From positions 25,022,709 to 25,086,708 of the forward strand of contig NC_133219.1 in assembly GCF_040436345.1 (NCBI RefSeq): a DNA stretch of 64,000 bases, given 5' to 3'. The DNA comes from Pagrus major (Eukaryota > Chordata > Actinopteri > Spariformes > Sparidae). Both the position numbers and the translations under genes were made by a program. This document shows, one piece after another, positions 5,111 to 63,546 of the stretch (position 1 is its first letter; the number at the start of each line of letters is the position of its first letter). The notes beneath the pieces are model-generated. The model worked only from the letters and a program-made list of their open reading frames with translations, did no database searches and was not told where the DNA came from.

Positions 5111-5774
5111 GACTTTCTTAGAGGGTCGCTTTTCTGACCCTTGTGGACGGCCTCCAGTGCTCCAGAGCCCTGCCAGCACAGGGCTAAAGGGCGCTGTGCG
5201 GCTCACGATGCGTCACTGTAGCCCTCTCTTCACACAGGGGCATCCACAGCTGTTCGTAGCCGAGCTCCAGCTCAAACACACGCTGCTCGTGAGGAGCTGA
5301 TGGTCGCTCTCTGGAAGTCCTTCTCTGGAGGTTTGCTGAGCTATCGAAGCTTTCAGAAAAACGTTATCTCCTAAATTTAGGAACAGATGTCAGTCAAATA
5401 ACTGAACTGCTCAGTGACGTTCACTGAACAGCTAACCAGTGTAGCATCCCCGGCTGAATGATGGTCATACTCTCTAACTGATGCTTACACACATGTAGCA
5501 GACTTTGGCTCACTGTGTCATAACTTAACACACAGGCTGAGTAAGACACAGCACATGAAGATAAACTCCTAACTTATACGCAAAATGAAAAAACAGGTAT
5601 GTTGTTTCCACACTAAACTGTATCAAGGAAATTACAGTATTGCACATTGTTCAAACGCACAGTACAATACATTGCTGTATTACTGTAGGTCTATGGGTCT
5701 AAAGTACAAAATGTATGATGTTTCATTTTCTACTGAACTGCCAGACTACCTGCACAGAGTGGAAGGCAGATTAT

Positions 5775-6043
5775 GTTCAGTGATGAACAGGAGGTGGCCA
5801 TAGTTAACATTGTTTTGGCAAATAACGAAATCCGGCTTCGTGAATTGAGAGAGCAGATCATCGCAGATCAAATAACCTTCGCTGACATCAACATATGAGA
5901 TATGTCAGCATATCTACACTCTCCCGCATCCTTAAAAGGCACAACATTTCACTGAAGCAGCTGTATAGAGTTCCATTCGAGAGGAACAGTGCGAGAGTCA
6001 AAGACCTCCATCATGACTATGTGCAAGTAAGCCCCCCCAACAC

Positions 6044-6113
<70 letters not shown>

Positions 6114-6850
6114 ATTACAGTCTTGTGTGTAAATGTGTATCTGATAGTCCTGTGTTTTCAATTACATTATATTCACTGTACATTATCTGCATTTTTCTGT
6201 TTTAGAGATTCCTGGAACTTGATGCTGCTCCACAGCAACACAAGTTCATTTTCGTGGATGAGGCTGGGTTCAACCTGGCAAAAACCAGACGTCGGGGCTG
6301 AAACATTATTGGGCAAAGGGCCATAGTACATGTCCCTGGTCAGCACGGGGGAAATATCACCTTGTGTGCCGCCATCAGTGTACAGGGAGTCCTGCATCAC
6401 CACTCCATCCTCGGTCCCTACAACACAGCCCTCATTATTCGCTTTCTGGACACACTTCATGACACAGTAGTCCAGGACGGGCCAGAGTAGCCCCAGTTTG
6501 TTGTCATCTGGGATAATGTCAGTTTCCATCGGGCAGCTCTGGTCCGGGACTGGTTCACCCACCATAATAGATTTATTGCACTCAACTTGCCACCATACAC
6601 CCCATTTTTGAATCCAATTGAGGAGTTCTTTTCAGCATGGCGCTGGAAAGTTTATGACCGTCAACCACATGCCCGCATGCCTCTTCTACAAGCCATGGAA
6701 GAGGCATGCGGCGACATTGAGGTGAGGTCCATACAGGGTTGGATACGGCATGCAAGGCGATATTTCCCCCGTTGCCTGGCAAGGGAGGAGATTGCCTGTG
6801 ATATGGATGAGGTGATGTGGCCAAATGCCAACAGGAGACAGGCTCCATAG
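5775..6850 (+). pseudogene. IS630/Tc1-type transposase with one intron
   Basis: The first part (about 5775-6026) encodes an HTH region, FSDEQEVAIVNIVLANNEIR, and then SISTLSRILKRHNISLKQLY, separated by a frameshift near 5895. A GT-AG intron (6027-6204) follows the codons for YVQ. The second exon encodes RFLELDAAP, then FVDEAGFNLAK (first catalytic Asp), GQHGGNITLCAAI, VIWDNVSFHR (second Asp) and PPYTPFLNPIEEFF (catalytic Glu, 35 or 36 residues after the second Asp). It ends at a TAG after RRQAP. Defects are a frameshift near 5895, one within about 6270-6330 and an in-frame TAG at about 6488. Homologues with this intron and architecture are common in teleosts. This copy is inactive. Confidence 0.85.
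6040..6112. repeat. AC dinucleotide microsatellite in the intron
   Basis: A nearly pure CA run of about 70 bp lies inside the intron of the IS630-like transposase, downstream of the donor. Confidence 0.95.
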
Positions 6851-7349
6851 CCTAAATGTCTTCCAATCATTCCCTTACAACACTATGTTTTGTAGAACAT
6901 TCTAGTTGTAACATGTCTTTGTGTTTTGTTTTTTTTTACTTTTGCAAAAACCTGAAAAACAAAAAAAAAAATTCTGAAGGATTTCCATTTTGTTTTCATG
7001 TGTCTAGATCAACTGTAGTGGATCAATCTTTCACAAAAGAAAAATCTGTATGAGTCTTTTAAAGTCAAAAACCATCCAAAGTACTGAATACAGCTGTGTT
7101 TTGCATAAAGCACATCTGTGTGTTGTTGCTGCTAGGAAAGAGTAATTCAAAGGTGCATGTGTTTAACGTTTTGATGCTAAAAACAGTTTTGAAATGGGAT
7201 TGTTAGGTTTTGTTTCAAGAGTTTCACTTTGCCGTATAAGTTAGGAGTTTATCTTCATGTGCTGTGTCTTACTCGGTCTGTGTGTTAAGTTATGACACAG
7301 TGAGCCAAAGTCTGCAACATGTGTGTAAGCATTCGGCAAAAACTGTAAT

Positions 7350-20415: not shown

Positions 20416-22129
20416 TAGGCCAGTCAATCTAGCCCAAAGAAACAAAAGAAATTGCAAAAGAAATGTCTCATAGTTTTTATTGGTCCTAATACCCTCCTGA
20501 ATAATATACTAAAAGTCTACCGCCGTAGATGGAGTGGAACATATTTTTTTTCGAGATTAAAGGCCAAAGTTGTGCCCAACACTCTAAGTAAATTGAGTAG
20601 AATAGGGAAAAAATTTTCAATGAATAGCTATCACTGTGAAACTTCTCCAGTTGATTAGTGACATCATACCAAAGAAATAATGTATTGCAAGTTTTTGAGA
20701 TTTTATGTTTATATATGCAAATTAGGCATTTCTTCATAAAATGTACCATAATTTGCATATATTACAAAACACAAAATCTGAAAATTGTATGAAGCCAGAT
20801 TAAAAATTATTGTTTCATTGTTGACACATTAGCAAAAAGACAAAATTAAAGAAGGGACTGTGGCTATGTTTCTCTATCATCCCATACATTAGAAAATACT
20901 AGTTAGAGTCATCAAAAAATCTATGTTTGTCATGTTTTTGGTATAAAAGGTTTTTGACCAAAAACCAAAATAAATTGCAAAAGTAATGGTCCTATGGTTG
21001 TATCTGCATCTAAACTGGTTAAAAACAAAACAAAAAAAAAAGTCCACCTAGTTTTAAACACTGCCCACCCACACACAGTAGGCTACAATTCCTGATCTGA
21101 TGGGAGTCTGACAATTGCACAATGCGCTGCAATTGCTGTCGTCAAGGCCTCGACTGCTCCCTAGCTTGCACAGAGTGCAGAGGCGTATGTGCAAATATGT
21201 CGGCAAACTTGGATGAGAACATGGATCGAACTTTTTTTGTTGTTGCCACAGAGTCAAATCTATAAGCGTTATGGCCTACCTCCTATTTTGTATATTAAAG
21301 TGCCTACTGGGCTTTCTCTTCTACACCTGTCTCTTGAGTTGTGGTTTTGGGTACGTATTGTCTATTTATAGATTTCAATATCAATGACTTGTCTGTGGTT
21401 TCCTCTGAAAAATTGATTCCCTTTCACTATAATCTTTAAAGGGTGTTTTCTCAAAATTAGGTTTTCATACACTGTGGAGGAGAAATCTCCACTTCAGTAA
21501 CACCTACATAAACTATTCTTTACAGATTTCTTCCTATCTATATTTTGTGTTTGATTAGGGAGGAGTTCTGTTGATATATTTTCAAATAGCCTGATATTTT
21601 CTACATTTTATACCAAAAACATGGCGAAAATAGATTTTGTGATGACTCTAAAAAGTATTTTCTAATGTATGGGATGATAGAGAAACATAGACACAGTCCC
21701 TTCTTTAATTTTGTCTTTTTGTATTGTGTCAACATAATGAAACAATAATTTTTAATCTGGCTTCACCCGATTTTCAAATTTTGTGTTTTGTAATATATGC
21801 AAATTATGGTACATTTTATGAAGAAGAGCCTAATTTGCATATATAAACATAAAATCTCAAAAGCTTGCAATACATTTTTTCTTTGGTATTATGTCACTAA
21901 TCAACTGGAGAAGTTTCATAGTGATAGCTATTCATTGAAAATCTTCCCCTATTCTACTCAATTTACTTAAAGCGTTGGGCACAACTTTGGCCTTTAATCT
22001 AAAAAAAAAATATGTTCCACTCCATCTACGGTGGTAGACTTTTAGTATATTATTCAGGAGGGTATTAGGACCAATGAGACATTTCTTTTGCAATTTTTTT
22101 TGTTTTTTTGGGCTAGATTGACTGGCCTA
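20416..22129. mobile_element. Palindromic DNA element with ~525-bp inverted arms
   Basis: The left end is taggccagtcaatctagccc and the right end its exact complement. The arms continue as near-identical inverted repeats to about 20,950 on the left and from about 21,610 on the right, leaving a spacer of about 660 bp. The spacer has no recognisable gene. The flanks share TAG (or ATAG). Removing the element and one copy of that duplication rejoins L1 ORF2 exactly at A-I-R-A-M-K-T-G-K-S. The duplication of three or four bases and the very long arms do not match a superfamily I can name. Confidence 0.85.
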
Positions 22130-44638: not shown

Positions 44639-45724
44639 ACATAGTTTTTTTTCAAAATCACTACAGAAATACAATTTCGACTTATTACTGCCTCTTCTGT
44701 CGTTTTTTGGTCTGCTACTCCTTCTGCATCTTTTGGGCTACAGAAACCATTCAACTATCAAAACATTCACCTCATTAAGGAGATGACTGCTACGGGTTTG
44801 GTATTTCTGCCTTTTATAATTTCTAAAAATATTAAGCTTTTTCTGCAAAATTTTGCCCATTCATTCTTATGGAGAAATCTTCAAATCCTCTTCAAACCCA
44901 TGCTACTTTGTAAATCTTTTGCTTCTTGATAGATCGAGCTGCAGACACCATTCCAACTTGAAAGCAGTTACAAGAGTTTAAACAATTTTTCTTGTATTCA
45001 GGGTTTTAAAATCTTTTATAGTTTTTAAATTATGACAGTTTTAGTTGTATGTTTTTTAGCTCCTCCTCTGCTTTTATATTGGGTGTGTAATGCACTCTTT
45101 AAGGTGAGTAAGAGCACCTATGATGCTCTACACACTGAACTCTTCTGCTCTTCTGCTTTTTTCAGTTTTATTTTTTTTTGTATTTTTTTTTGCTATATTC
45201 CACAATTTTCACCTCTCATACACAAATAAAACAGAAAAATGTAGGAAATCTTGTCGTCTTGTCTGATTTCAGCAATAGGACCTCCACTTTTGGCTGTGGA
45301 CGCTTTAAAGCGACAAGCACCCCAGCACTTCCCAAATAAGCCCCAATGTTAAATTTTGAGCCTAAATGTCAGCAGACAGAACCAGTTTTGTAAATCACTG
45401 TCATTTGCTCATTTTAGACACTACAACAATAAAATAGACTGAAAATGTACTCTCCCAGCTATGTGTCCTCTCACTCATTTTGTTGATAGATATATGCAAT
45501 AGCAGTAAAAAATATTAGCCAGTTTCCTGCTTTTTTGAAGTAGCCTTTTTTAAGCTCTCTCCCCATTTCTCTTTCAATGATACAGCAATTTCAAGCCTTA
45601 GACTGATCCCCCAATCAGAGAGTGTTCCTCTGTTCTGATTGGTGGACTGATGTTACGTTCTTTCTGTTGAGTTTAACTGTTAATAAATTCAAACCTTGAT
45701 CTGCTTCAGGGTTAAGTTTCTCTC
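44639..45724. other. Noncoding stretch with an older dispersed repeat
   Basis: Positions 45,285-45,445 (acttttggctgtggacgc, agccccaatgttaaatttt, gacactacaacaataaaata) match 55,530-55,685 in the same order and orientation with moderate divergence. The two are copies of one dispersed repeat. No coding signal. Confidence 0.65.
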
Positions 45725-45776
45725 TCTACTACTACTACTAATGCTACTAGAACTACTACTAGTAGTAGTACTACTT

Positions 45777-45812
<36 letters not shown>

Positions 45813-46385
45813 TACTACCACTACTAGTGCTTGTACTAGTACTACGACTACTACTACTACTACTTGTACTACAATAACTATGACTACTTGCACCTCTACA
45901 ACTACGTATACTACTTGTACTACTAATACTACTACATATACTACTTCTACTACTTGTAGTACTACCACTGCTACTTCTACTACTACTACCAAGACTACTA
46001 CTACTACTACTACTACCACTACTTCAACTACTACTATTGCTACCGCAGAAACTTAGTGAAACTAAGTGGGTCCAATGAGGCGGATAGTGGTATTCAAGCT
46101 TAGTTAGTAAACTTACTAGTACTATTGCTGCTAATACTCCTACTACAAATACTTAGACAGATATTACTGTTACACCTTTTACTACTACTACTACTACTAC
46201 CAATACTACTCAGCTACAATGACTAGTACTACTTTTACTGTTACAGCTTATGCTACTACAACTATTACTACAAATATTATTCCTTCTTTTACTGCTGCTA
46301 CCACTGCTACTACTAGTGATGATACGACAACTACTACTACTATTCCTACCACTACTTCATGTACTACGACTACTTCAGCAATAGG
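45725..46385. repeat. ACT/TAC trinucleotide-rich region
   Basis: A long interrupted ACT repeat in two parts (45,725-46,033 and about 46,110-46,370). The apparent open frames in it (poly-Val, poly-Thr) are products of the repeat. Confidence 0.92.
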
Positions 46386-46670
46386 ACTAGATTTTTCGGC
46401 CTTTAAGCAAAGAGAACATTTCTTCCTTTATCCTGTTATGCCTTTTCAAATATTATTAAATCAGCTTTTTACCTTCATTACAATATTGAGCCTTCTCAGG
46501 TATCTCATTTGAACTTCCAGCTTACAGTTACTCCCAGCTTTTCTAGCAATGTTTTTTCATCTCTTACCTTCTTAAGCTAGGGCAGTTTGACATGAGGGTT
46601 TTTCAGCAGCTTATAGTTTTATGACATTTCAGGCAATTATTTTTCACATTTCTGCCTTTTCAGCTTTGTG

Positions 46671-46694
46671 TTAAAGCTAGGGTCTGTAATCCTG
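46671..46694 (+). repeat. Left terminal inverted repeat of the Kolobok
   Basis: Includes the TTAA target. It pairs with 55,039-55,062 with 22 of 24 matches. Confidence 0.88.
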
Positions 46695-46796
46695 GAAAAC
46701 TAGCAAGAGAGCGAGCAAGAATTGAAAAATGCACCTCCTCCTGCCTCCTCTAAGTTCCTCCCCCCTGCTCCCCCTCCCGTCAGTGAGTCCGTCCAA

Positions 46797-46807
46797 GCCA
46801 CGCCCCC
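46797..46807 (+). promoter_or_regulatory. GC box upstream of the P2X7-like gene
   Basis: ccacgccccc about 130 bp upstream of the ATG, in a C-rich TATA-less segment. It mirrors the GC box upstream of the transposase gene. A promoter role is inferred from position. Confidence 0.45.
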
Positions 46808-46933
46808 ACACACAGGAACGCGCACAGCCGCACACCAAAAATGACAAGCGGCACGGAGAGGGAAGCTAACCTGGAGCTAACCTAAAGAGCTAGCTATTTC
46901 GGAGTATTTTGGAGGACAACAACGAACAGAATC

Positions 46934-48318
46934 ATGTCTCATTTATCTGTAAGTAAACTATATTATTATGTTTTTTGTTTTGTTTTCTAGCACATCAGTC
47001 TGTGCAGACCCAGAGGCAGGTCGGGTCTGAATCTGCCGAATCTCTCCAAGGATCCGGCTGGATACAGACCCATCAGCTAAATTACATTGTAATACGTGTT
47101 ACGTGTTATTCACTGACAAACGTGTTTTATTTTTATTATTATTGTTATTAGTCACATAGCATGTAATAGCAACTCGGTTTTTTCATTGACAATAATGCAG
47201 GGTAATGCAGAAGTGTTAGAGAAGTAAATTTGGGCCAATATGTCAATTTTACTCTAAAAATTAGTTAGACAGAAATGCTATTAGGCTAACGATATCTTTG
47301 TTGTTTGATTGTTAGAGTTTACATGATCAGAGCACTGGCTCAGATCCGAGCTACAGTCCGCAACCGAGCACGTCTTCAGCTCCAAGAGGACGCGGTCGTG
47401 CTAGAGCCAGAGGAGGCCGTGCTCGAGGGGCTGCAAGGGGCAGAGGCCGAGGAACTCGAGGTCAAGGACGTGGAGCAAGCCGGACTGCGACTGGAGAGCG
47501 TTTACAAGATGAGGATATTCAACGAATGGAGAATCTGCAAGCTCAAAGAATTGCAGAAGAGCAGGTAGCCTTTCTAAAATAGCCTTTTGCCCCCCATGAT
47601 CTCCACATTATCTAGAACGGTAAACAATGACATGCCATTTACTGTGAGCACAACATTTCTTTTAGTTTATTGTCATTCATAAACTGTAAAAGAAAAATAT
47701 AAACAAATTAAATTTTCAACTCTGGTCTGGCAACAAACCAAAAATAATATTAGTAATAATAAAGGACAAGGTCTAATCTTCTTGATGAACTGTTTTTTTT
47801 TACAGGCTAGAATTGGACGACTGAGCTTGGAAGAATCCCATCAGGTGCTTCAGATCTGCCTTACAAGGGACCCAAGCCTCCTGTTCGACGTCCTGCAGAT
47901 CTCAGCATCAGGAGATGCTCCTCCACCAGGCCCTCCAGCTCCACATCTACCCACTTGGTGTGTGTGCAGGAAGTGCCGCGAGATGCCCACAGATCTAGAA
48001 AAAAAGTGCTGTGGGCAACAACCTGCTTCCTGCATTTCCATGCTGCCTCACATGGAAGTGTACATTTTGCAGGAAGGGGTCTTGCGATTGGCTCGGAGGA
48101 TTTGGAACGATGTCCGGGCTGAGGAGGATCTTCCAGACCCCGGCGAAAGCAATAAACAGTTCCGCTACGCTGCATACCGTCAATATGTTGTGTGGCAATA
48201 TGGGGCACTGGGTGCTGGGCACAGAGTGGTTATTCCTAGTTGCTGTGTCTGGAAAATCAGAGACCGCTACCCAGACCCCAATGGACAGTACAAGGGTTTT
48301 GTCCCTAGCAGAGTCTGA
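46934..48318 (+). CDS. RG-rich protein with P2X7 C-terminal ballast domain
   Basis: Three exons with GT-AG introns all in phase 0: 46,934-46,948 (MSHLS), 47,316-47,564 and 47,806-48,318, giving 258 residues without defect. Residues about 20-65 are arginine/glycine-rich (RGRGRARARGGRARG and similar), a pattern of RNA or DNA contact. Residues about 66-100 are helical with many Glu and Gln. From about residue 130 the sequence matches the cytoplasmic ballast (P2RX7_C) domain: CVCRKCREMPTDLEKKCCGQ with the zinc-type cysteines, then LRLARRIWNDV, FRYAAYRQYVVWQYGALG, and RVVIPSCCVWKIRDRYPDPN. In the P2X7 receptor this domain binds zinc and guanine nucleotide. No membrane segment is present, so this is a soluble relative. 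Its task in transposition is unknown. A polyadenylation signal follows at 48,464. Confidence 0.9.
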
Positions 48319-48463
48319 AAAGAGATCTAAAGATTTACACTGAAGCCCTGCCATTTATATGGCAACATTTGCACTGAGGTTTACATTATGCACATAACAA
48401 GGTTGTTTATATTTTACTTTTATTTAAAATTTGTCTCTTGTTATTTATATTTTGTCATTTTTG

Positions 48464-48469
48464 AATAAA
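48464..48469 (+). terminator. Polyadenylation signal of the P2X7-like gene
   Basis: AATAAA 146 bp after the stop codon, followed by a T-rich segment. Confidence 0.7.
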
Positions 48470-48697
48470 ACTTTTGAAAAAGATGAATGCCTTTCATTGT
48501 ACTATATCTGCAAAACAAGCAATAGATTTTCTCACCACCACATTCAAAATAAGTGATTACAAACAACAACAAAATTGGTATAACTCTTTTTATTGTTACA
48601 TAAATAATCTGTAGATTTTCAAGAATAGTATATACATGGTGTTTCCAGGGATGGGAGACAGGTCAGGCTGTGTGGAGTAGTTGTCAGCTGTGGTGAT

Positions 48698-51600
48698 CTA
48701 CTCCTTTGGCAGTGATTTACCTTTAGGAAGAATATCACAATTACACATCTGATAATAATTAATACATTTTTTGAGACAATCAATGAATAAGAATACTTAG
48801 AGCGTGTACATAATGTGTACATTATGTTATAACTTCATCAAGCTACAATATTGTAAGAAAACTCACCTAGGCCTCTGCTGAGTTGGGTCTGCAAAAGTTC
48901 CTGCATCGATGGAGCTGGGACACCTGACAGAACCCGATGTTGACGTGGATCATCTGGCCTTTTCCTTGCAGTCCGTGGCAAACCCCCAGTAGCAGACAGC
49001 CTGCACCGCAGAATTGCACTTTGAAGGTCTGGAATGTAGCTGTAGTCCTTCTCCACCTTTTCTGTGTACAGGCTCCACTTCTTTGACTTTTTGTTGTACA
49101 CCTTGCCGTATCTGTAATAAGAGAAAAGATAAGAAGCTTTGTGATACATTCATATTAGCATAGAATTTAGTCAGGGTGGAGTTGTATGCGTCAAGGTCTG
49201 AGGCATAAAGCTCTGCCCGCAGTTGAACAATGTCTGAAGGGAGCAACATCTATCATAACCACTGTAATTTCAACTTATTTCTAAGACACACAACCTCCCA
49301 CATTCTCACCAAAATATCAGACTTTTAAATTGTAATTGTAAATTGAATCCCTTTAGATTTCAACTACCTGAGACACCAAACATCTCACTTTCTCATCAAT
49401 ACTCAAATCCTTTTGTATTTTAAATTGTGCTGACTAGACCTCTTAGCTTCACACTTCAGGGGGTCACTGCCCATCTGTGAAAGACAAAAGAGTGTGAAAA
49501 CACACCCTAGGTAAGAGGACGACCCTACAGCAGACAAAGGACGTAAAGCACACATCAGAGGTGGGCTTTTACTCAGGTGTAAATGTTTCCCTTCATTTTG
49601 AACCGCAAGCATGTTGATTGACCTTTTCTTTGCAAAGAAAATAAAAACCTTGTTGGCTGAAGGAAGTCTCTATTCTTCACCCTTGTGCACCCTTATGAAA
49701 AATGTACGTTCTTAACATTTGGGGACAAAAATGTCCTCTTCAAAAACACCAAGAAAGGTATCTTAATATTTTTTGGCCTTTTTTTTTGCTCATCAGTGTT
49801 CACATGCTTGACTGTGCTAATCCTCCTATAAAAAAATAAACCTTTAATGTATGTTTTTAACCAAAATCTGTGCACTGTGATGTCCTCTTGAATTCTGGAA
49901 ATTAAAAATAAGTATTTTATTTTTATAAGATAAAAATGAACATACTGAATCGAGCCATCAGTCCTTTTCTTGACTGGTCTGTCAACATGGTGGTTGTAGT
50001 CCAGGACAGCCAACATGACTCGAGCGGCGTACACAGGCGGTGAAAAGGAGAAGCGTTTGCTCGCATACATCAAAATGTGATTATGGAACGACTCCAATTC
50101 TGCAGTAGACCTGAGAGCACAGAGAGCATTTAAAATTACTTCAGAATCTGATTATGACAATTATGACTGACAAGAAGTCAAAGTTTCATTGTGAAAACAG
50201 TAAGTGGAACATAGACCTATACTGACTTACCGGAAATGTAGATATTTGTGTACATTCTCTAGCCAGCGTGCGTCAAGGACAACTTCTCTCAGTCTCTGGT
50301 GTGCTACAGAATTCTTCTCGATCCAGGTCTTCTCTCTGTCCTCCACCAAGGGACCATGGTGACAGGCACCTAAGGCCCACGCATGTGTTCCTGACACGTG
50401 GTGAAGCAGGCCAGCCTACATGTCCTAAGAAAAATAAATGTGGTCAATAACAAAAGAATCAATTTCTCCAAAATAACTATTACAAAATAAAATCTCGCCT
50501 AGATATTTTTATTTCTATAATACTTACAAAGAACTCTGTGTATGTATCTGCAGTCTTGCAGCAATACCAGAAGTGGTTGCAGATGTCTTTGGTCCACATC
50601 TGAAGGATGGCACACCCCTTTTGTTGTCCTGCCTGGACATTGCATCAGAATTACATTGTAGGAATGTCAAATTAGTTTCTGAAATTTCAGTAGATGATAT
50701 TTTTTAAATCCAGCTATATCAATCTACATAGAGATCATGTACTTACTGCATGAATTCGTTTCCCCAAACTTTTGGACCCATGCCACATGTCCAGGGTGTG
50801 TCTGACGCCACAATCTTTATATTTCCCTTTTTGGTCTGTAGGACAAAAAGCCAAATGAAATATGCTCAGTCATAATTGTAATTATTGCCCATTCATAATA
50901 ATGAAACTAATATTTGTGGTATGGGACTCTATTTCTGTAGTCCAGCAAATCACGATAATAAACTTACTGAAGAGGGCTGATATCTGTGAATGAGCATCTG
51001 TGCAGAATTCCTCAATTTGGAGTTCTTTGCGTAGTGTCTCAAATGCTCGCATGAAGCCCTCCTTCTCCATGATGACAGAGTTGCGCATTGTCTCACGCTT
51101 GTCGATGTTGACCGTGCACATTATCTTCTTGGATTCATTGTCCATGGCAGTATATGTACAATACTGTGCAGAAAATCCAGGACTGTCCATGCGACCATCT
51201 CCTTTGAAAACAAATTAGAACAAATCAAACTTGTCATTTATGTTGATCAAACTTTGTGAGAAGCCACTGTCCAGCCCTTCATATAAAAAATATATTGTAT
51301 CATGAATTTTTATGTCAACACTGAAGAAGACATTCTTCACTTTTGCTAAGGCTAAGCACTTCTTCACTTCTGGTATAAATGTGATAATTACATGATATCT
51401 GGAGAGGGTCCTTGATTGTCACTGCCCCCTGATCTAGAATACACTGTCATGGTCCTCCGTAGTACACCCGGCACCACCTACACTCTACTACATAATAGAC
51501 TTTTTAGTTTTTGATCTTTCTATCAATATTGTTTTGCCCTGACAAAACCATTCCTTGAGAATACATTGATAATATTGTGCTTTAGATGAAGAATGTAGGT

Positions 51601-54027
51601 TTGTGTTGAATGTTTATTTATGTGTCTGTAACTCACCCAGTGCTACAACAGGACCTTTTGCCTTGAGCTGGGTGATGACTGCGGCTCTCTTCTCATCCCA
51701 GAACTCCTTTATTGTGTCCACACAATACGATTCCTGGATTCGGAAGAATGTCGACCTGTCTACCATTCCCATGTTCATATACTTGAACAGTAGTGAGGTC
51801 TTGGCGTAATTGTTGCCCGACAGCAGGATATTACTGGAAAGCATGAAGTCTCCAACTAGCATTCCGTATTTCAGCATTGGTTGGGAAGCCCACTTCCAAA
51901 CAGTGTGACCACGATGACACATCTGGGGGTGAAAAAAAGACAGAATAAGACAGCACATTATAGTAACCTTCTTTGATTTTATCCACCTCCAGAGCTGATT
52001 GCTCACCTAACCTAGATTGTTTCAAAGGAAAAGACGGGACAAGGGAGGGTCTATGGTAGCGGGTGGGGATGTTGTGCAAATAGGAAGAAAAGTGGGGGTG
52101 AGCTTAGTGGGGGGATGAGATGGCATACTAGAGGTATCAACGAGCGGGGTTGCTGCAGTAATGGCTGGGCTGGGGGGAGGGACAGATGTCTGATCAAACC
52201 GGTTGAAGAATGAAGAGCCTTCAACTACAACTTGTTACCTGACATAGAGGCTCTCTTCTTCCACCCTAAAGCATTTATGTTAGGAGCTCTTCCCATTTGT
52301 GTATGTTGAAGTTGCTTCTGAAAATATGCCTGATGTAACAGCAAAAGAAAATACAAGTCCCACAAAAAATTAATAGTCTTTTATAACTTGTATAAAAACT
52401 CACCCATTCAATAACAGCAGATGTTCCCCTGGACCTGATATTGATTTCGAATGGTCCAGGTGCCTGGCACTCAACATTGCTGTTTGGATCCTTGGCAGGA
52501 CACACGCTGACCGGAAGGAGGAGATACTCAGCAAGCTGCCTCAGGCTGTCATGATATGCAATTGATGCAGGATGACCAATTATGTCATCCTCAACCACAA
52601 CTTTTGCTGCTTCTGAGAATGTTGGCATATCTGACATAGTTGGATCTGTGGCATTATCTGGAGCATCATGCACAGTGTCCTCAATGCTGATTTCCTTGAG
52701 CGATTCCAATGCAATTGGAGTCTTCAGAGCACCACCAGTCCTGTTATAACAAGAACAGCTATGAGAACTAAAAAAAACACAATAACTTCACTGTAAGTGT
52801 AGCTAGAGAGTATTGAACTTACCTAATACAAATACGAGGCCTAAAATCTAAATCATCACTGTCATCATCAGAGTCCACTTCCTTGGTTACATCTTCTTCA
52901 GATGATGACACAGACTGTGTGCTCATGTCTGGATTCCAGGTCTGGTCTTCATCTTCCCATTCAATGCTGTTGAAAAATAAATTTAGAGAACGTAATATAG
53001 TTATACACAAAATGAATAAGATAATCAAGTAAAAATATATCTTCACTTCATGCAGAAACTTACATGGAGTTTTGAATATCGTTAAATTCATCAGCATCAA
53101 CAACAATGTTTAGGTCCAGTGACGACATGCTAAAAAAGAGAAACACACACAAAAAACAGAGGAAATATTACATCACCACATGTCGCTGAAATAATGCACA
53201 GACTATGATTTTACAGTAAATTTTACTCTGCAAATTATTGGACAAAACCATCTGACTAATCTTAAAATAAACTGGACCTGGTGTGCTTCTTCCTCCCTCG
53301 TCACAAACTGGGCCGCACGGCCGTGACAAAGGAAGGAGAAGCACACAAGGATTCAATTAACAAAAAACGCAAAAAGAACAAAATAAACTAAGCATGGCGT
53401 GTGTGGTCAGTAACATACCTTGCATCCAATTGCTGAAGAGCTGTCTCCTCTGGGCAGCTTATGTCCAAATCCTGAACCCCAGCTACTGAGAAGTCTTCAT
53501 CGCTGTGAAGATTACACAATTAGAGAATACTGTCAGTGCAGCATCAACATACATTTACCCTTCATTCATAGAGGACAAAACATGGAACTGTTTGTGTATG
53601 TATAATGTAGAAATAGAAGTCTTGGGTTTGGCAGTTGGACCAAAAAAGCATAAAGATTGATATAAACTGAAGATCCACAGTTGTCCCTATCCTCACTGCA
53701 TAGCATGTACAGACTACTGCAGCCCATGACAAGCTTGTAACATGATCAATTACTCCACCAACACCACACAAAGTTAGAGGTACAACTTATGGTAGCTGTG
53801 TTTTATTTTAGTGTTGGTTGTTGTTTTAGTTGATGTTAACAACTCTGTGTTGAGTGCTGGACCTCCTATGGTGAAGGACAGTGATCTAATCACTAACATT
53901 TACATGTATTTATAATGTTTGTATAATGATATGGCAGATATCACTGATAATAATACCTCAAATAGCACTTTGAGGCACATAAAACAGAAAAGGCTAGATG
54001 TAAAAGCGTTGACAAATTCATATTCAT

Positions 54028-54061
<34 letters not shown>

Positions 54062-54696
54062 AGTTGAACTCACCGGTCGGAAAGAGACTCAGACACAATA
54101 GTTGAAACTGGCGGGGGAGGTGGCCTCATCAATCCTTTAGACGGCGTCGAGGTTGATGGATCCTTCTCATAGCTATGAAACATAAATGAGCTACGTCACC
54201 GCGGTTGTAAAAGCCAATATATGTACGTCTTTTATCACAATAACACAGACACAGACGACTATGGTAGTAGAGTAATATCTTGTATAAAATCAGTATACTA
54301 TAATCTATTCAATACTAGCGTCATCGGCCCGTTTTACACCACAGAGAAGCTAATATTAGCATTTGGCTAATACAAGCTACAATAGTAGCTACGTTAGCAA
54401 AAGTTAGCCTACATTTTCATGAAAATAAGAAATCCTCCCTGAAGCAAAACAAATAATTATCTGTCCAACAGAAAGACGGCAACCTCGGCATCACTTTTGA
54501 GTCTCTTCAGATCCCTCAGTTGTCTCCACCGCTCAAAAGCTGAACCAATGTTGACTCTGGTTTTCGCTCTTGCTTTATCCAGAAGCTTTTTGTTTGCAGA
54601 CTTTTCTTCCTCTGGCTTTCTCTTTTTTGCCTTTTTCTCTGGAAGAGCCGTAACAAGTAACCGTTGAGGCGGTTTGGGCTGCGTTTTCTCAGCCAT
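48698..54696 (-). pseudogene. Kolobok transposase, 14 exons, two lesions
   Basis: Exons (high to low): 54,696-54,461; 54,172-54,074; 53,502-53,419; 53,129-53,064; 52,966-52,823; 52,740-52,404; 51,922-51,637; 51,201-50,968; 50,835-50,747; 50,632-50,528; 50,424-50,231; 50,110-49,946; 49,111-48,867; 48,720-48,698. Together they make 2,307 nt, 769 codons including the stop, with consistent phase at every junction. Exon 1 encodes a basic stretch and RVNIGSAFERWRQLRDLKRL. Exons 3-6 are acidic. The catalytic core fits the D-D-H pattern of Kolobok: GDGRMDSPGFSAQYCTYTAM (junction of exons 7 and 8), EEFCTDAHSQISALF (exon 8), VRHTLDMWHGSKSL (exon 9). Later blocks are DICNHFWYCCKTADTYTEFF and ESFHNHILMYASKRF. 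Lesions: TAG at 50,418-50,416 where relatives by recall have Trp, and AT instead of GT at the intron 1 donor (54,460-54,459). Family assignment rests on the motifs and TTAA. Confidence 0.85.
54028..54063. repeat. CAG trinucleotide repeat in intron 2
   Basis: About 11 AGC units directly downstream of exon 2 of the transposase gene, within the intron. Confidence 0.92.
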
Positions 54697-54802
54697 TGCT
54701 CAAATGATCACGAAATCCGTTCTATAACTCTGTAGTCCTGCAGAGGTGTACTGAATCGGCAGCAGGCAGCAAGACCTGAAGGCGGTGCGCGCTCCCGTAG
54801 GA

Positions 54803-54811
54803 GGGGGCGGG
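54803..54811 (-). promoter_or_regulatory. GC box upstream of the transposase gene
   Basis: GGGGGCGGG about 110 bp upstream of the minus-strand ATG (54,696), in a CpG-rich segment without a TATA box. A promoter role is inferred. Confidence 0.5.
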
Positions 54812-55038
54812 TGCAGAACTAGACATGAAGGCATCTGATTGGTTCCTTAGTCTCCGAGCAAACTTCGAACAATCCGTGCTATTCGGACCGAAGGGAACGG
54901 ATTGGGGGGAGTTTTCTTAGTCTTGCGGCTGTCACAGAGCTCTGTTATTTTCCATTCCTTTTCCTGCTGACATAGCGTACTGATTCCTCTGAAATTAGAC
55001 GGGCCATTTCCCCCAGTATAAGAAAAAGTGCTTTTGAA

Positions 55039-55062
55039 CAGGATTACATACCCCAGCTTTAA
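55039..55062 (-). repeat. Right terminal inverted repeat of the Kolobok
   Basis: Complement begins TTAAAGCTGGGGTATGTAAT. It includes the TTAA target and is the partner of 46,671-46,694. Confidence 0.88.
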
Positions 55063-56560: not shown

Positions 56561-56911
56561 CACGCTGCTTCAGATTGGTTCAGCATCATTCCTGGAGCTG
56601 TGGATCAACGCCCGCTTGGTCACCAGAGGTTGCTACACGGTCACATTAAAGCTGGAGTGTGTAAGTTATTTCTGGCGTCATTTGGTCAAAAATCAATAAT
56701 AACCTTTCAGCATATTGTAATTCATAGTGTTACGACAGAAAACTGGACTTCTGTGTCTCCTCTTGGCTCTGTATTCAGGCTTTAAAAAATCAGTGCCGTG
56801 ACGGCAGTGTTCAGCCAATCACAGTTCATTTTACAGAGCAAGCTGTTTTGGGCGTTCCTATTGGTTGCTCGACCAAAGTCAATGCGCGTTCACCTTCCAT
56901 CGGTGGTGAAA

Positions 56912-57155
56912 ATGCAACAGCGGACGTCCCGGCAGGAAAAGCCGCTATCCCAGCATTACCAACAAAAGTGTACACGGCAAAGCAAGCCAAAAAAAGGAAG
57001 ACCGATGTAGAGAAACGAGAGTCTAAGAGAGAGAGTGACAATAGATGGAATAAATCGCGTGTAAACATTGAACAAGCATATCCGAGGTGGAGAGAGCTTT
57101 GCGATAGCATCAGGCTGATGTTGGATACTGAGCTTGCTGTTCTTCTCCTGGACAG
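56912..57155 (+). pseudogene. Kolobok transposase exon 1 homologue
   Basis: The conserved frame reads KQAKKRKTDVEKRES, then RVNIEQAYPRWRELCDSIRL and TELAVLLLD, paralleling RVNIGSAFERWRQLRDLKRL and EVAVFLLD of the large Kolobok. It ends at GACAG/gtgagc (57,156), the same phase as exon 1 there, but with a good donor. The conserved frame has no ATG. The likely initiator at 56,912 is one base out of frame, so a small deletion near the start is inferred. No further exon exists in this element. Confidence 0.8.
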
Positions 57156-57805
57156 GTGAGCCTCCAATGTAAGTTTTACGTAGCTAATAATCTAAAGGTG
57201 TGGTAGTAATTGGCTGTGTAGTTGAAATGACCGTGAATCTAATAAAGAAGGCGGTTTGTGGTCACAATTGACAAGTAATGTTGTGAGTTGATTAGCTTTA
57301 TGCTAACCGTAGCCAAAGGCTCACGACAGCTACAAGCAAGTCAGAGCCAAAGTCAACGTCAAATGTATTGTCAGTAGCGTTATATATACACGACATACAG
57401 AGGACGTGTGCTGTGTAAATATGGATGTGACAGTTATTATTTATTTTCAGGTTGCGATGAAAAGAAAGAAGTGTCTGAATAAAGTGGTTGTCTCTGATAG
57501 TCCGTGCATGTGGGAGTAATTGTTTACTTTAGTGTTATATGTTGTTTTATTATTCTTAGCATTCACACCTCTTCCCTGTGATATATGTGTTGCTGTTGTC
57601 ATTAGATTATGCTGTATAAGTATCACGTCAGTATGACAAATATCGTAGCGTTATTAGTGCCAGACATGAAGGCTATGTCATGCTGAGACGTTAGCAAGAA
57701 ATAATTGTTGTCGGTCTCTATCGCTCTTCTAAACAATGCAAAAGTAATGTTTGTTTGTTCATACATTCAATTTGTTCACGAGAGAAAGGTAAAGTACTTT
57801 CTTAC

Positions 57806-57820: not shown

Positions 57821-58183
57821 GGCTAGTGTATGACAGAAAAGTTCCGACGTGACTATGCCAAGCGCTACAGTTGCGCGCGTCCACGAGAGTGGAAAGTGAA
57901 AGTGTGGAGCTACGGAGTCGAAACAGGGAGGGGAGGGGGGAGCACAGTTGTTTCTATCCCAGTCTCATGCGTTTTTCACATATTCTACAAATTCCAACTT
58001 TAATGAACTTTTTGGTATCGAAGAAGAGTGATACAAGGAAAAGGTTATTAAACGTAAAGACTTAAAGAAAAAATAGAAACTGTTCTGTTCAGTTAGTCTG
58101 ATATTTTGAGTTGTTTTGCTTTTCTTACTCTGAAGATAAATTTGTTATTTTAAGATATTTCCTTGTGTACAGATAAGTGATAT

Positions 58184-59268
58184 ATGAAAAGGTTGAAAAA
58201 AATGGATGAGGATGATGTCTCAGCTGACAATTTTAAGTTTGGTATTGGAAGGGGGAAATTTATCAGTGACTTACTTCATACACCCGTCCAAGGGGCACAT
58301 TATGTAGATTCACCAGCTTTTTGTTCTACACGCATGCCTGTTAATGCAGCCTCTAGTCCTAGTCAGGGGGTTACACTTTCAAGCCTTTCAGATACAGCCG
58401 ACCCAGCCTTAAATAATCTGATAACCCATATAGCCCAGCAGGTAGGACAGTCTTTAAAAGAACAGTTGAGGAGTGAGTGTGAAGAAAGAGGTGTAAACAG
58501 CGCGCAGGCTCAGAGCAGTGCAGGCCAGTCACCCAGTGATGCCACTTATCTCAATCTAACTGGTGCAAAGCTAGTCCTACAGTCAGACGTGAGAGGGCCT
58601 CCAGTCTTCAGGGGAGATGGGTCTGACAAGAACACAGTTTGTGAGTGGGAAGAGTTAATGGAAGTGTATTTCTGAAAATGAGCCACACCCCTGAAAGAAC
58701 AGCACTCTGAGATAATATCTAAATTAATGGGCAAGGCTAAGGACATTGTGAGGATAACTCTGCTGTTTTCAAGTTCAAAGCGACAGCCAGTTAGATTCAA
58801 GAGCACATTGATCGCCACCAAATTGAAATGAAAGAACAGACTCTCTCCAAATCAAAGCGTCTTAAGCTACTGACAGTTCATGCCCAGACTCCTGTATTGG
58901 ACGATTCAGGGACAACATGCCACTCAGTAGAGTCACCTATGCAGGGTGAAAGCAGTGCAACATCTAGACCCCCTTGTAATGATAACTGCCTGAAGACATT
59001 AGTCAGCCTTTTTGACCAAGTCCTGTCACAGAACAACCAAGCCACACACAAGTCAGCCTCCTCTGATCAGTTTCAGCATAGATCCTGGAGAGTCTGCCAA
59101 TCTCTGGAGCATTCCACCCTTGCACACTGCAGGCAAAAGCGCCTATGCTTAGCATGCTTTGAGCCGAACCACATTAAGAGAGACTGTCCCAATCGCCAGC
59201 CTGGCCGTGATCAGCGGGTCTCCCAGCCACAAAACACCCAGCCACCAAACACCCAGATTTTAAACTAG
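58184..59268 (+). pseudogene. Gypsy gag with CCHC zinc knuckle
   Basis: The first open block (58,184-58,675, stop TGA) encodes an N-terminal gag-like region, with a Ser/Gln-rich linker. After a damaged stretch (58,676-58,830) that has lost part of the capsid, the second block (58,828-59,268) ends in a zinc knuckle of the form C-x2-C-x4-H-x4-C (59,149-59,190: C, C, H and C in CLACFEPNHIKRDC). It would package the element's RNA. This copy is inactive because of the stop and the deletion. Confidence 0.75.
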
Positions 59269-59278
59269 CTGCCCACAT

Positions 59279-60411
59279 TTGGTGGGGGGATGTGTGGGCA
59301 TTGAAGAAACCCTCGACAATAGTGATATTGAACAACAGTACGTAAAAGCATGTGCAGCAGCATCGACTGGTGCTAAAGTAATAGTGCAGAACACACAAAG
59401 AGTGGGTCCCTTTGACAAACTGTTTTACACCCCTGTTAACATAAACAACACATTCCAGGTGCAGGGGATGCTTGATTCTGGTTCCATGGCCTGTACACTC
59501 AGTGAGCAAGCAGAACTAAAAATGTTGAGTGAGAATATAATCTCGGGACCTATTCCTCTGACACATGAGATTGTGCTAGTAGGTTGTGGAGGGACACTGA
59601 GCAAACCAAAATGCATGTATGAGGTGGGAATGAAACTGTATGGAGAAAGCTGCACGGTGCCCGTTCTTGTGGTACCTGGTCAACGTGATGACTTGATCAT
59701 AGGTACAAATGTCATCAGATTCCTCATACATCAGCTGAAAGTAACTGACGATTATTGGCATCTTGTTTCCAGTGGCAATCTTCTCCCGGAGTGTGAGCAA
59801 TTCCTCAATCTCTTGGCAATCATTCATCCCGGTGGAGGGGTGAGGAGCTTCCAGACGTGGTCGGAACTGTTAAGCTCCAGCAGTCAATCACCTTGTTGGC
59901 GAAGCAAGAACATCTGGTTTGGGGCAAACTACCAAAGAATGTCCCCATGTCACCTGGCAGCACAGTAACTGTCGAGCCCACCTCCTCCAAGTCCATGCCT
60001 CGTAACATCATGGTTGGCCGTGTCATCACACCACTGTGGGGTGATAGATGGATCCCCATGAAAGTTACTAACCTGACAGACAAGCCCATCACCTCGAAGC
60101 GAAACAGTAAGTTAGCGGATGTGTCTCCCTGTCTGGCCGTGGAGGATTTTGAGGTTTTTCAGGGCACCAACCAACCTGAAAGAGCCAAACAGGAGAAAAA
60201 ACATGATAATGATCAGCCTACAGACCTTAAACAGCGACTACAAAAGGTCGGGCTCGCTGACATTGATATTGACCAGTGCCACGCTAATCTAACGGGGAAG
60301 GAGAGGTTGGTCGAACTGCTTGAGAAATACAATGACATTTTCTCCAAACATACACTGGACTGCAGTGAAGCAAAGGGTTTCACACATCGCATCCGGCTCA
60401 CTGATGACTAG
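59279..60411 (+). pseudogene. Gypsy protease and N-terminal pol region
   Basis: The retropepsin-like protease has its active-site motif LDSGSMA (about 59,470) and a downstream flap/second-half region with LIIGTNVI (about 59,694-59,717). A one-base frame change near 59,832 moves reading to the next frame, which stays open to 60,411 through a spacer and a conserved pre-RT segment ending FTHRIRLTDD. The hAT begins exactly there, before the reverse transcriptase catalytic boxes. Confidence 0.78.
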
Positions 60412-61175
60412 GGCTGGGTATCGTTTAAAAATTTTCGATACCAGTACCGATACCAGTACCCTTAAAACGATACCGATACCAACTGACTACTTCATCCGAT
60501 ACTTTTTTTCAACTTGATTCGATATTAATCATATGAAAAGAAAGCATTCGGTTGCATGAATGTCACCACTCCTCCCCATTCAAAAGATTTTTTACACAAA
60601 TGCATGTTGAAAGTGCTCAAATATTTATTAAATAACTGTACAAACATGTACAACGAAGTATTATTTGGGTTGTGTAATTTTCAACAACAACATCACAACC
60701 AACCAACATTCTGAATCTAACCAGTAAGTAACCACTGACCAGTCAGTCCTCCTCAACAGTTCTTTTTAAGGAATATTATCATGTCAGCCTTAGGGCTGGG
60801 TATCGTTTAAAAATTTTCGATACCAGTACTGATACCAGTACCCTTAAAACGATACCGATACCAACTGAGTACTTCATTCGATACTTTTTTTCAACTTGAT
60901 TCGATATTAATCATATGAAAAGAAAGCAATCGGTTGCGTGAATGTCACCACTCCTCCCCATTCAAAAGATTTTTTACACAAATGCATGTTGAAAGTGCTC
61001 AAATATTTATTAAATAACTGTACAAACATGTACAACGAAGTATTATTTGGGTTGTGTAATTTTCAACAACAACATCACAACCAACCAACATTCTGAATCT
61101 AACCAGTAAGTAACCACTGACCAGTCAGTCCTCCTCAACAGTTCTTTTTAAGGAATATTATCATGTCAGCCTTCT
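60411..61175. repeat. Tandem duplication of the hAT 3' terminus
   Basis: Two head-to-tail copies of about 382 bp, each beginning tagggctgggtatcg and reaching into the last codons of the transposase (atgtcagcct). They differ at about six positions. Confidence 0.9.
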
Positions 61176-63546
61176 CTGGGGCAAGGCATGCCTTTTCCTG
61201 GCTTAATGTGTCTCCAGCAGTTGAAAATATCCACTCTGCTGGAGTGGAGGATGCCTGGACACAAGTATAATTAGAGGCCAGGTCAAACAAAATGGGGAAT
61301 GTCCCTCTCCTCTCCCACCACCACTCAGCAGGATGGGTGGAGGTCAGCTCTGCAGGTAGAGCTCTGTAGAGTTTAAGCTCCTTTCGTGCCTTCTCTGACC
61401 GGTCAAGGAGTGGCACTGCCTGGATAGTTTTAAGGGCCAGGTCCTCCTTGGCAAACAGCTCCCCCAGTGCAGAGTCAGACGCGGAGTGGCTCGTAGTCAC
61501 AGCAGTCTATAAAGATGAGTATCAAGGTAAAAATTGAGAGAAAAAAAAACAAGTGAGACTAAACCAGAGGAAAGCACTGAAGTACTGATCATCTTAATGC
61601 AAAGTGCTTAGGTTTGTCTATTTAAGAGATGAGTAAGTAATGAATGGTAAGTATTATGGAAAGCTTACATATGTTGTGTTCTCCATAGATGCAGCCTCTT
61701 CATCCTCTTCTTCCTCCTCCATCCCCTCATCCAGTTGGTCCTCTTTGTCTACACCGATTTCCAGTGCATGCTATGTTAATACAGTGTTATATCACTATTC
61801 TGTGTGGCATTTCAATAATCAATACTTCATCTTCATCCCAGGAAGTACAGTAACAATAGTCAAAATGAAGCAAACCTGTCCAGAGTTTTCGCCGCATGCC
61901 TTCTCTTCCAACCTAGACCAAACGGCAGCATCCATGATTTTGGTCTTAAACCTGGGGTCGAGTGATGTGGCCTCTTCCAGGAACATCCTGATGTTTTCAT
62001 CCTGTGAGAGATAATTAATATGCCAATACCAGAGTTAGACCCTTTCATAATGTATTTTTAGTGATTTATTACAACAACAACAAAATACATACCGTGTAAC
62101 GCTTTGAAAGATCATCCCACACCCTTTTCTTAATGGCAGCAGTAAAGGTGGAGTCTGCATCCTGAACCTTGAAGTGGCCCTCAAGCTTCTGCAGGATGGG
62201 CAGAATTTGGCCACATGCTGGAGTCCTTTCTGAGGATACACACAGTGTTGAAGTGTAGAGGATTCTCATCACTCTCACGAACTCCTCTGCATGCCTGAAG
62301 TCCTGGTCTGAAATTCTCTGCAGTCTGAAAAAAGAAGACAACCACCACACACAAAACCAAAGCAGTTTTAATGAAGATATCAAATTAAAGAAATACCGTG
62401 TCAGTCTAGTGATAATGTCATGCACATCAAATCTCACCTGTCCCTTTCCATTGACCTCCTGAGCCTAGGGTCCAAAGATGCTGCCTGAATGACTGAATAC
62501 TGCTCTACAAACCGTTCAATGATGAGGTAGAGTGTATTCCACCTAGTTCTCACATCGAGCACCATTGCATGCTGTGGGAGATCTGAAAACATATTAAACA
62601 ATGCACATGCATTTCATTTACATGTTAAGTAATAATTTTGGAAACATTTATGCTGCCAATAGAGGAAAAGACATACCTAAGAGGCGTTGTTTCTCCTTCA
62701 TAACTGGCTTGGCTAAGCTCGCCTTCCTCAGCCACACAACCACTGCCCGGATTCTTGCTGCCCAATTCGACACTGTTGGTTCAGTGTACACCTTTTGGGC
62801 AGCAAGGTTAAGAGAATGAGCAAAGCAGCCTATCTTGACCACCTTCAACATCCTAGCAGCCACACGCATATTTGCAGCATTGTCGACTGTTAATGCTACC
62901 ACCTTTCCCTGAATATTAAACTCTGCCATTATGTGACGAATCTCTTCTGCCAAAAATTCTCCTGTCTGGGCCTCATAGACAGCTTTAGTGTGGAGAACCC
63001 TTTCTTGCAGCTGACCTCCCTTAGCAAAGTGGACAGTGACTGTAATGTAGTGATCTTGGGCTACACTGGTCCAACCATCACAGGTAAGCGCCACATGCTC
63101 AGTCTCCTCCAACTCTGCCTGCACTCTCTCCCTCTCTACGGCGTACCACGCTGGTATCAGTGTGGTAGAGAGCATGTCTCTTGATGGCGGTTGATACCGT
63201 GGGTTAAGGGCAGCAACCATCTCTCTAAGTAAAACACAGGACACAGAGCATTTTAAATGTTTCATCTCAAAGCATTAGTTGCTGAAACTTCCATTTCCTG
63301 AGCATAAGTGAGTGAGTTACAATCATCAGTGCTGGCTGGCTTACCTAAACCAAGGTGACTCTACAGTTGAAAACGGCTGAAGCCCCTTCACAATAAACTC
63401 TGTCACTTTCCTGTGGCATTCCTCCTTCCTCTCCCTTGTCATCTGCGATCTTGCAGCTAATGTGAATGGTGTGAGGCTGCTGCTAGAGTCTCTGGCAACG
63501 TCAGCCGGTGCAGTGGTGGTGGTGGTAGTAATAGTCGTAGTTGGAC
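61135..63546 (-). CDS. ZBED-like hAT transposase, seven intact exons
   Basis: Exons (high to low): 63,546-63,345; 63,224-62,677; 62,582-62,438; 62,324-62,093; 62,001-61,876; 61,770-61,669; 61,506-61,135. All introns are GT-AG and the phases agree, giving about 575 open codons with no stop or frameshift. Key motifs: HVALTCDGWTSVAQDHYITV (first catalytic Asp), VALTVDNAANMRVAARML (second Asp), IGCFAHSLNLAAQKVY, TRWNTLYLIIERFVEQY, SLDPRF, and the C-terminal dimerisation domain PAEWWWERRGTFPILFDLAS with STPAEWIFSTAGDTLS. A Glu-rich insert lies in the sixth exon. The N-terminal BED finger exon must lie upstream of 63,546 and is not visible, so the CDS is partial in this window. Confidence 0.85.

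Follow-up and report, generated by a model that had tools for sequence, protein, structure and literature searches.

A putative KolX-bearing Kolobok transposon in the red seabream genome and its sister copies with whole or truncated KolX

Introduction

The P2X7 receptor has been described as the product of a fusion that joined a P2X4-like gene to KolX, a second protein of Kolobok transposons that in the Kol0 lineage has the fold of the receptor's ballast domain, and zebrafish Nanor as likely a domesticated KolX (Kojima & Bao 2022, PMC9587614). Free-standing proteins also carry the ballast domain (Rump et al. 2020, PMC7016195). Here, we analysed a window of 64,000 nucleotides from the red seabream, Pagrus major (NC_133219.1, positions 25,022,709 to 25,086,708, forward strand), in which an element of 8392 bp is, on comparative grounds, almost certainly a KolX-bearing (Kol0-type) Kolobok DNA transposon. 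Leaving aside the exact role of KolX, the account given below is very probably the best explanation of the locus as a whole. An earlier note on this DNA had proposed, as a novelty, that a P2X7-type domain travels as a transposon accessory protein and that a Kolobok element could have carried it to P2X7; this central inference is right in outline but already published, both KolX and the fusion having been reported in 2022 (PMC9587614). The reason for specialist interest is instead that sister copies with and without a whole KolX occur naturally in one genome, and a literature search, with Repbase outside its scope, found no described intact, recently mobile KolX family.

The closest described system is Kolobok Kol0 with KolX (Kolobok-1_XT type; PMC9587614), which is alike in its TTAA target, 5'-RR/YY-3' ends, DDE transposase with DxxH and zinc motif, and ballast-fold second protein, the likeness being one of features, not a residue-by-residue match with Repbase families. 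Beyond what is described for Kol0, the copies of this element add a common KolX deletion and split gene states. The P2X7 ballast shares its fold and zinc-motif cysteines with KolX (PMC7016195), but the receptor has P2X exons, no arginine/glycine-rich (RG) tail and, in rat, extra contacts to guanosine diphosphate (GDP), whereas KolX stands alone and is tied to a transposase. Free-standing ZCD proteins such as Nanor (Rump et al. 2020, PMC7016195) have an RG or variable N-terminus and the same C-terminal domain, and are read as host genes, unlike the KolX of the element.

Structure of the element

The ends of the element are a 24-nt inverted pair, TTAA included (46671-46694 and 55039-55062), and read AG...CT (5'-RR, YY-3') between the two TTAA copies:

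46671..55062, no strand: whole Kolobok element, 8392 bp with both TTAA copies counted
46675..46694, + strand: left 20-bp terminal inverted repeat, starting AG, with its TTAA at 46671-46674
55039..55058, - strand: right 20-bp terminal inverted repeat, with two private mismatches and its TTAA at 55059-55062

A degenerate end pattern had two matches in the window and none in 100 shuffles, and a search for 20-nt inverted matches next to TTAA (no more than 2 mismatches, spacing below 12 kb) returned four pairs against none in 200 dinucleotide shuffles; the remaining three are parts of other inverted repeats. The inverted ends agree at 18 of 20 positions in the window copy; a check of four others (C17, C11, C20 and C21a, named by contig) gave 20 of 20 each time. 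The TTAA-flanked inverted ends of the earlier note are thus borne out by the shuffles and by five further copies with the same ends, as is its convergent gene pair, with KolX on the + strand, the transposase on the - strand and the two AATAAA signals about 120 bp apart.

46934..48318, + strand: KolX gene, exons 46934-46948, 47316-47564 and 47806-48318, 258 aa, intact
47316..47564, + strand: KolX exon 2, holding the RG-rich stretch (residues 26-62)
47806..48318, + strand: KolX exon 3, the bulk of the P2RX7_C (ballast) domain, modelled and matched to P2X7
47911..48191, + strand: 281-bp segment missing in four of six copies (C11, C20, C21a, C21b)
48464..48469, + strand: AATAAA of the KolX gene, read from the sequence

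In the window copy both KolX introns are GT-AG, residues 69-253 match the P2RX7_C profile (E 9.1e-31), and R and G make up 65% of residues 26-62. The highest 19-residue Kyte-Doolittle mean is 1.06, hence KolX has no membrane segment, and domain search and hydropathy together found neither a P2X channel domain nor membrane segments in its 258 residues. Exons, profile match and hydropathy therefore confirm an intact gene with a P2X7-type C-terminus, an RG-rich N-terminus and no membrane segment, as originally read. The zinc and nucleotide binding claimed alongside fared unevenly. Seven zinc-motif cysteines are near invariant, kept in 95 to 98 of 98 KolX sequences, but only part of the rat P2X7 GDP contacts is retained: R546 in 92, R578 in 94, H547 in 68, and R574 and K583 in none of the 98. 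Window KolX keeps R546 and R578 only, with Y at the H547 position, and the red seabream's own P2X7 likewise lacks R574 and K583. Judged by its residues, window KolX has the ballast fold and the zinc-motif cysteines without the set of five GDP contacts, and the case for nucleotide binding is weak. A predicted protein of Mugilogobius chulae (P0241, 630 aa) joins BTB/BACK to a ballast domain, and is either another fusion or a gene-model chimera.

48698..54696, - strand: transposase gene of 14 exons and 768 codons; DDE type with DxxH, broken in the window copy
48589..48594, - strand: AATAAA of the transposase gene, read from the sequence
50416..50418, - strand: in-frame TAG stop in transposase exon 11, private to the window copy
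54459..54460, - strand: non-GT donor after transposase exon 1, private to the window copy

The transposase gene reported earlier is present with 14 exons, but the stop and the donor break it in the window. Support for its model comes from a loach protein of 771 residues (83% identity, full length) and from the C11 copy, in which the same 14 exons are open and all 13 introns are GT-AG; a Pagrus major protein (P0125) is letter-identical to the C17, and also the C11, reading of exons 7-14. The catalytic residues are not the D-D-H first proposed. Alignments of 20 and 121 sequences conserve a D-D-E triad (D419 or D423, D486, E631) with D511xxH514 ahead of the E, in a reading that is open in C11. 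H545, H569, C581 and H583 are conserved between DxxH and E and, by position, would be the Kolobok zinc motif. TTAA target, RR/YY ends, DDE with DxxH and putative zinc motif are thus all those of a Kolobok element.

The transposase of the loach Paramisgurnus dabryanus (P0121), with 83% identity to that of the red seabream over the full length, is highly similar for such distant fishes, and horizontal transfer is possible. Fusions to C2H2 zinc-finger arrays occur in 15 of the 120 listed transposase relatives (P0126, P0138, P0144, P0158, P0162, P0170, P0176, P0178, P0182, P0185, P0191, P0197, P0198, P0208, P0209), of which 10 keep D-D-E. On a 105-row tree the fusion label needs at least 7 changes, and several of these relatives share one Micropterus contig with close LOC numbers; they are either recurrent fusions in fishes or gene-model chimeras.

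Pairing of KolX with a Kolobok transposase

Searching the genome with the KolX protein gave 44 matches, 30 of which were returned as loci (29 distinct, 28 non-receptor). With pairing defined as a transposase probe match at E<=1e-4 within 1.5 kb of KolX, a transposase was found at 22 of the 28 non-receptor loci (22 of 29 distinct), and at all 22 it was convergent with and downstream of KolX (23 of 23 rows, one locus appearing twice). Pairing held at 16 of 22 loci once six near-identical copies were set aside, and a DNA search found one further match, on C14, where the two genes also converge. As a control, 20 chunks taken elsewhere in the window and from the P2X7 locus yielded a single match, a Kolobok remnant at 56.8 kb; no transposase lies within 1.5 kb of the P2X7 receptor itself (L034). 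Paired genes also occur in a goby under consecutive gene numbers (WMY93_027086/027087 and WMY93_012474/012473). These counts bear out the proposal that Kolobok elements carry the ballast domain with them as a second protein. At 11 of the 22 paired loci the transposase matches were weaker (best E 2e-9 to 6e-5), mostly from a second, more distant Kolobok group.

This more distant KolX-transposase group of the same genome comprises L046, L047, L050-L055, L057 and L058; its KolX is mostly a C-terminal piece of about 50 residues, and its transposase is about 24-37% identical to the probes. A separate locus, L030 (C22:2098255-2098749, - strand), holds a KolX-type gene that is intact and has an RG-rich exon; it is possibly a domesticated, Nanor-like host gene.

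Sister copies in the genome

Across the assembly (786 Mb, 25 contigs) there are at least six near-identical copies of the element: C5 (the window), C17, C11, C20, C21a and C21b. TTAA bounds every one of the six on both sides, at five insertion sites (four besides the window's), and flanks differ between copies except in the C21 pair. C21a and C21b share their flanks and every element base, and so represent one insertion duplicated with its surroundings; the two (L012 and L013) lie 14.6 kb apart with identical near flanks, as a segmental or an assembly duplicate. Substitutions are few (9 in 8100 between C17 and C11, 4 in 5530 between C20 and C21); the window copy differs from each other copy by 21 to 26, 21 of its differences being private. 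Divergence this low shows an element that is young, by sequence, and that has moved recently to five TTAA sites.

Gene states are split between these copies, and none of the six has both genes whole. In the window copy KolX is intact and the transposase dead. C17 has an open KolX with two replacements, one at the second cysteine of IPSCC, and a transposase frame shifted by two single-base deletions. C11 has an open transposase and a 281-bp deletion that cuts KolX to 123 original plus 15 new residues. C20 and the C21 pair carry the same KolX deletion together with a common 2464-bp transposase deletion, and C20 has lost an additional 100 bp. KolX is thereby truncated in four of six copies, representing three of five insertions. 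Copies with the same ends but without the gene, which had been named as grounds for refutation, therefore exist in part; since the truncated copies share a single internal deletion, the loss of KolX is secondary. The same deletion in three insertions means that the deleted form itself jumped and, hence, that KolX is not needed in cis.

Short non-autonomous relatives carrying the left-end region of the element were also found (L017-L028, plus 30 short matches). The right-end region, including parts of transposase exon 1, is present in 11 of the 12 fetched short relatives, among which only L021 (737 bp) has both TTAA ends in the fetched stretch.

Relation to the P2X7 receptor

The red seabream P2X7 receptor lies on the same contig (C5:16.64 Mb), 8.4 Mb from the element, with matches to P2X_receptor (E 4.5e-55, joined exon pieces) and P2RX7_C (E 4.3e-66). 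We built an unrooted ballast tree from 74 of 103 possible rows and 125 columns, omitting eight long-branch or partial rows and every second close teleost row. Human, mouse, rat and red seabream P2X7 ballasts form one side of a branch at 100/100, and window KolX is placed among teleost sequences, away from the red seabream's P2X7. In an earlier tree without fish P2X7, mammalian P2X7 stood beside a free-standing Callorhinchus protein (P0102) at only 93/32. This topology fits a single capture before the fish–tetrapod split, four receptors on a long branch being no proof of it. We therefore reject the window element as the vehicle of P2X7 capture, since fish P2X7 joins mammalian P2X7 at 100/100; the tree of P2RX7_C domains that the earlier note had called for places it as a late relative of the donor and not as the donor itself. 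With 125 columns and 24 of 71 forks starred, the tree is too weak to name the donor KolX lineage.

Possible roles of KolX

From its family, the transposase would cut and paste at TTAA by DDE chemistry, and it would act in trans on any copy with both ends retained. KolX, putatively zinc-stabilised, RG-tailed and probably nuclear, would bind nucleic acid or the transposase, a role that appears the likeliest because the zinc motif is conserved and the RG tail is present, and it may aid transposition in trans, a tentative reading to which we give somewhat less than an even chance. The P2X7 ballast would descend from a KolX of this kind captured long ago, and not from the window element. More doubtful is a two-component system divided between copies, in which window-type KolX, itself required, and C11-type transposase would act together in trans on both-ended copies. 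Harbinger elements would be comparable in how they work, pairing a DDE enzyme with a small second protein, which is required there and is unrelated to KolX. We know of no ancestral job for the ballast domain of the heavily studied P2X7 receptor. Were the divided two-component system real, this ballast would have begun as a transposition factor and become a channel domain; its zinc site would be left over from the handling of nucleic acid, and its guanosine site would have been gained later.

Several points weigh against this account. All support for the mechanism is sequence comparison, and the dispensability of KolX in cis fits a trans helper as well as a passenger or a regulator. No transposase lies within 1.5 kb of KolX at six of the 28 non-receptor loci (L030, L037, L042, L044, L048, L049), and the pairing count covers 30 of 44 KolX matches. 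In the ballast tree, P2X7 sits on a long branch and the starred forks are many. The Kol0 assignment draws on the encoded KolX with its ballast fold, and not on a tree of Repbase families. Finally, no THAP domain was among the Pfam matches at E<=1 for the transposase, a difference from Kol0 as described (PMC9587614), THAP being a domain that Kolobok transposases "usually possess" and thus usual, not defining (PMC6004289).

KolX might instead be a regulator that limits transposition or counters host silencing, which we consider rather unlikely. Its core is lost in four of six copies, and it has stayed open in the window copy despite a dead transposase; the truncated product of 138 residues in all could itself modulate, as truncated P-element proteins do. 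The numbers are tiny, however, the deletion arose once, internal deletions are commonplace in DNA transposons, and this reading too would be drawn from sequence. That KolX is a passenger, with its own use or none, and that the transposase alone suffices, agrees with the continued movement of deleted copies and with Kolobok lineages that encode a transposase only (PMC9587614), yet it is made unlikely by a zinc core near invariant from molluscs to fishes and by pairing that persists with the six near-identical copies set aside. One fish holds near-identical sister copies that differ in whether KolX is whole and in whether the transposase is open; because they coexist, whether KolX helps, restrains or does nothing is directly testable.

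Two further alternatives concern the origin and identity of the element. As the trees are unrooted, topology alone gives no direction, and the transposon could have taken the domain from P2X7 or a Nanor-like host gene; this is highly improbable given that window KolX groups with teleost elements, a long way from the P2X7 of the same fish, that KolX-type proteins occur in molluscs, echinoderms and amphioxus, and that sponge and cnidarian ones stand outside P2X architecture (Rump et al., PMC7016195). A piggyBac element would also duplicate TTAA, and KolX-like proteins are reported from a few piggyBac families (PMC9587614), but the AG...CT ends follow the 5'-RR/YY-3' rule that sets Kolobok apart from piggyBac (PMC9587614), DxxH precedes the E, and no piggyBac model was among the Pfam matches at E<=1 for the transposase. 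Ends and transposase thus contradict this identity, leaving it a negligible probability.

Neighbouring features

Directly left of the element lies a long CTA-type trinucleotide repeat array (window 45717-46390). Window 20557-21997 and 5525-7288 are long inverted repeats: the former, possibly a foldback element, has TTAA with AG...CT at its ends, and the latter pair extends past TTAA. To the right, window 56848-57159 (+ strand) is a remnant of another Kolobok transposase N-terminus, 45% identical to that of the element over 75 residues. Beyond it, window 58181-63274 has retroelement-like open frames, with a weak aspartyl protease match under its cut-off, and hAT pieces (Dimer_Tnp_hAT, 1.6e-14).
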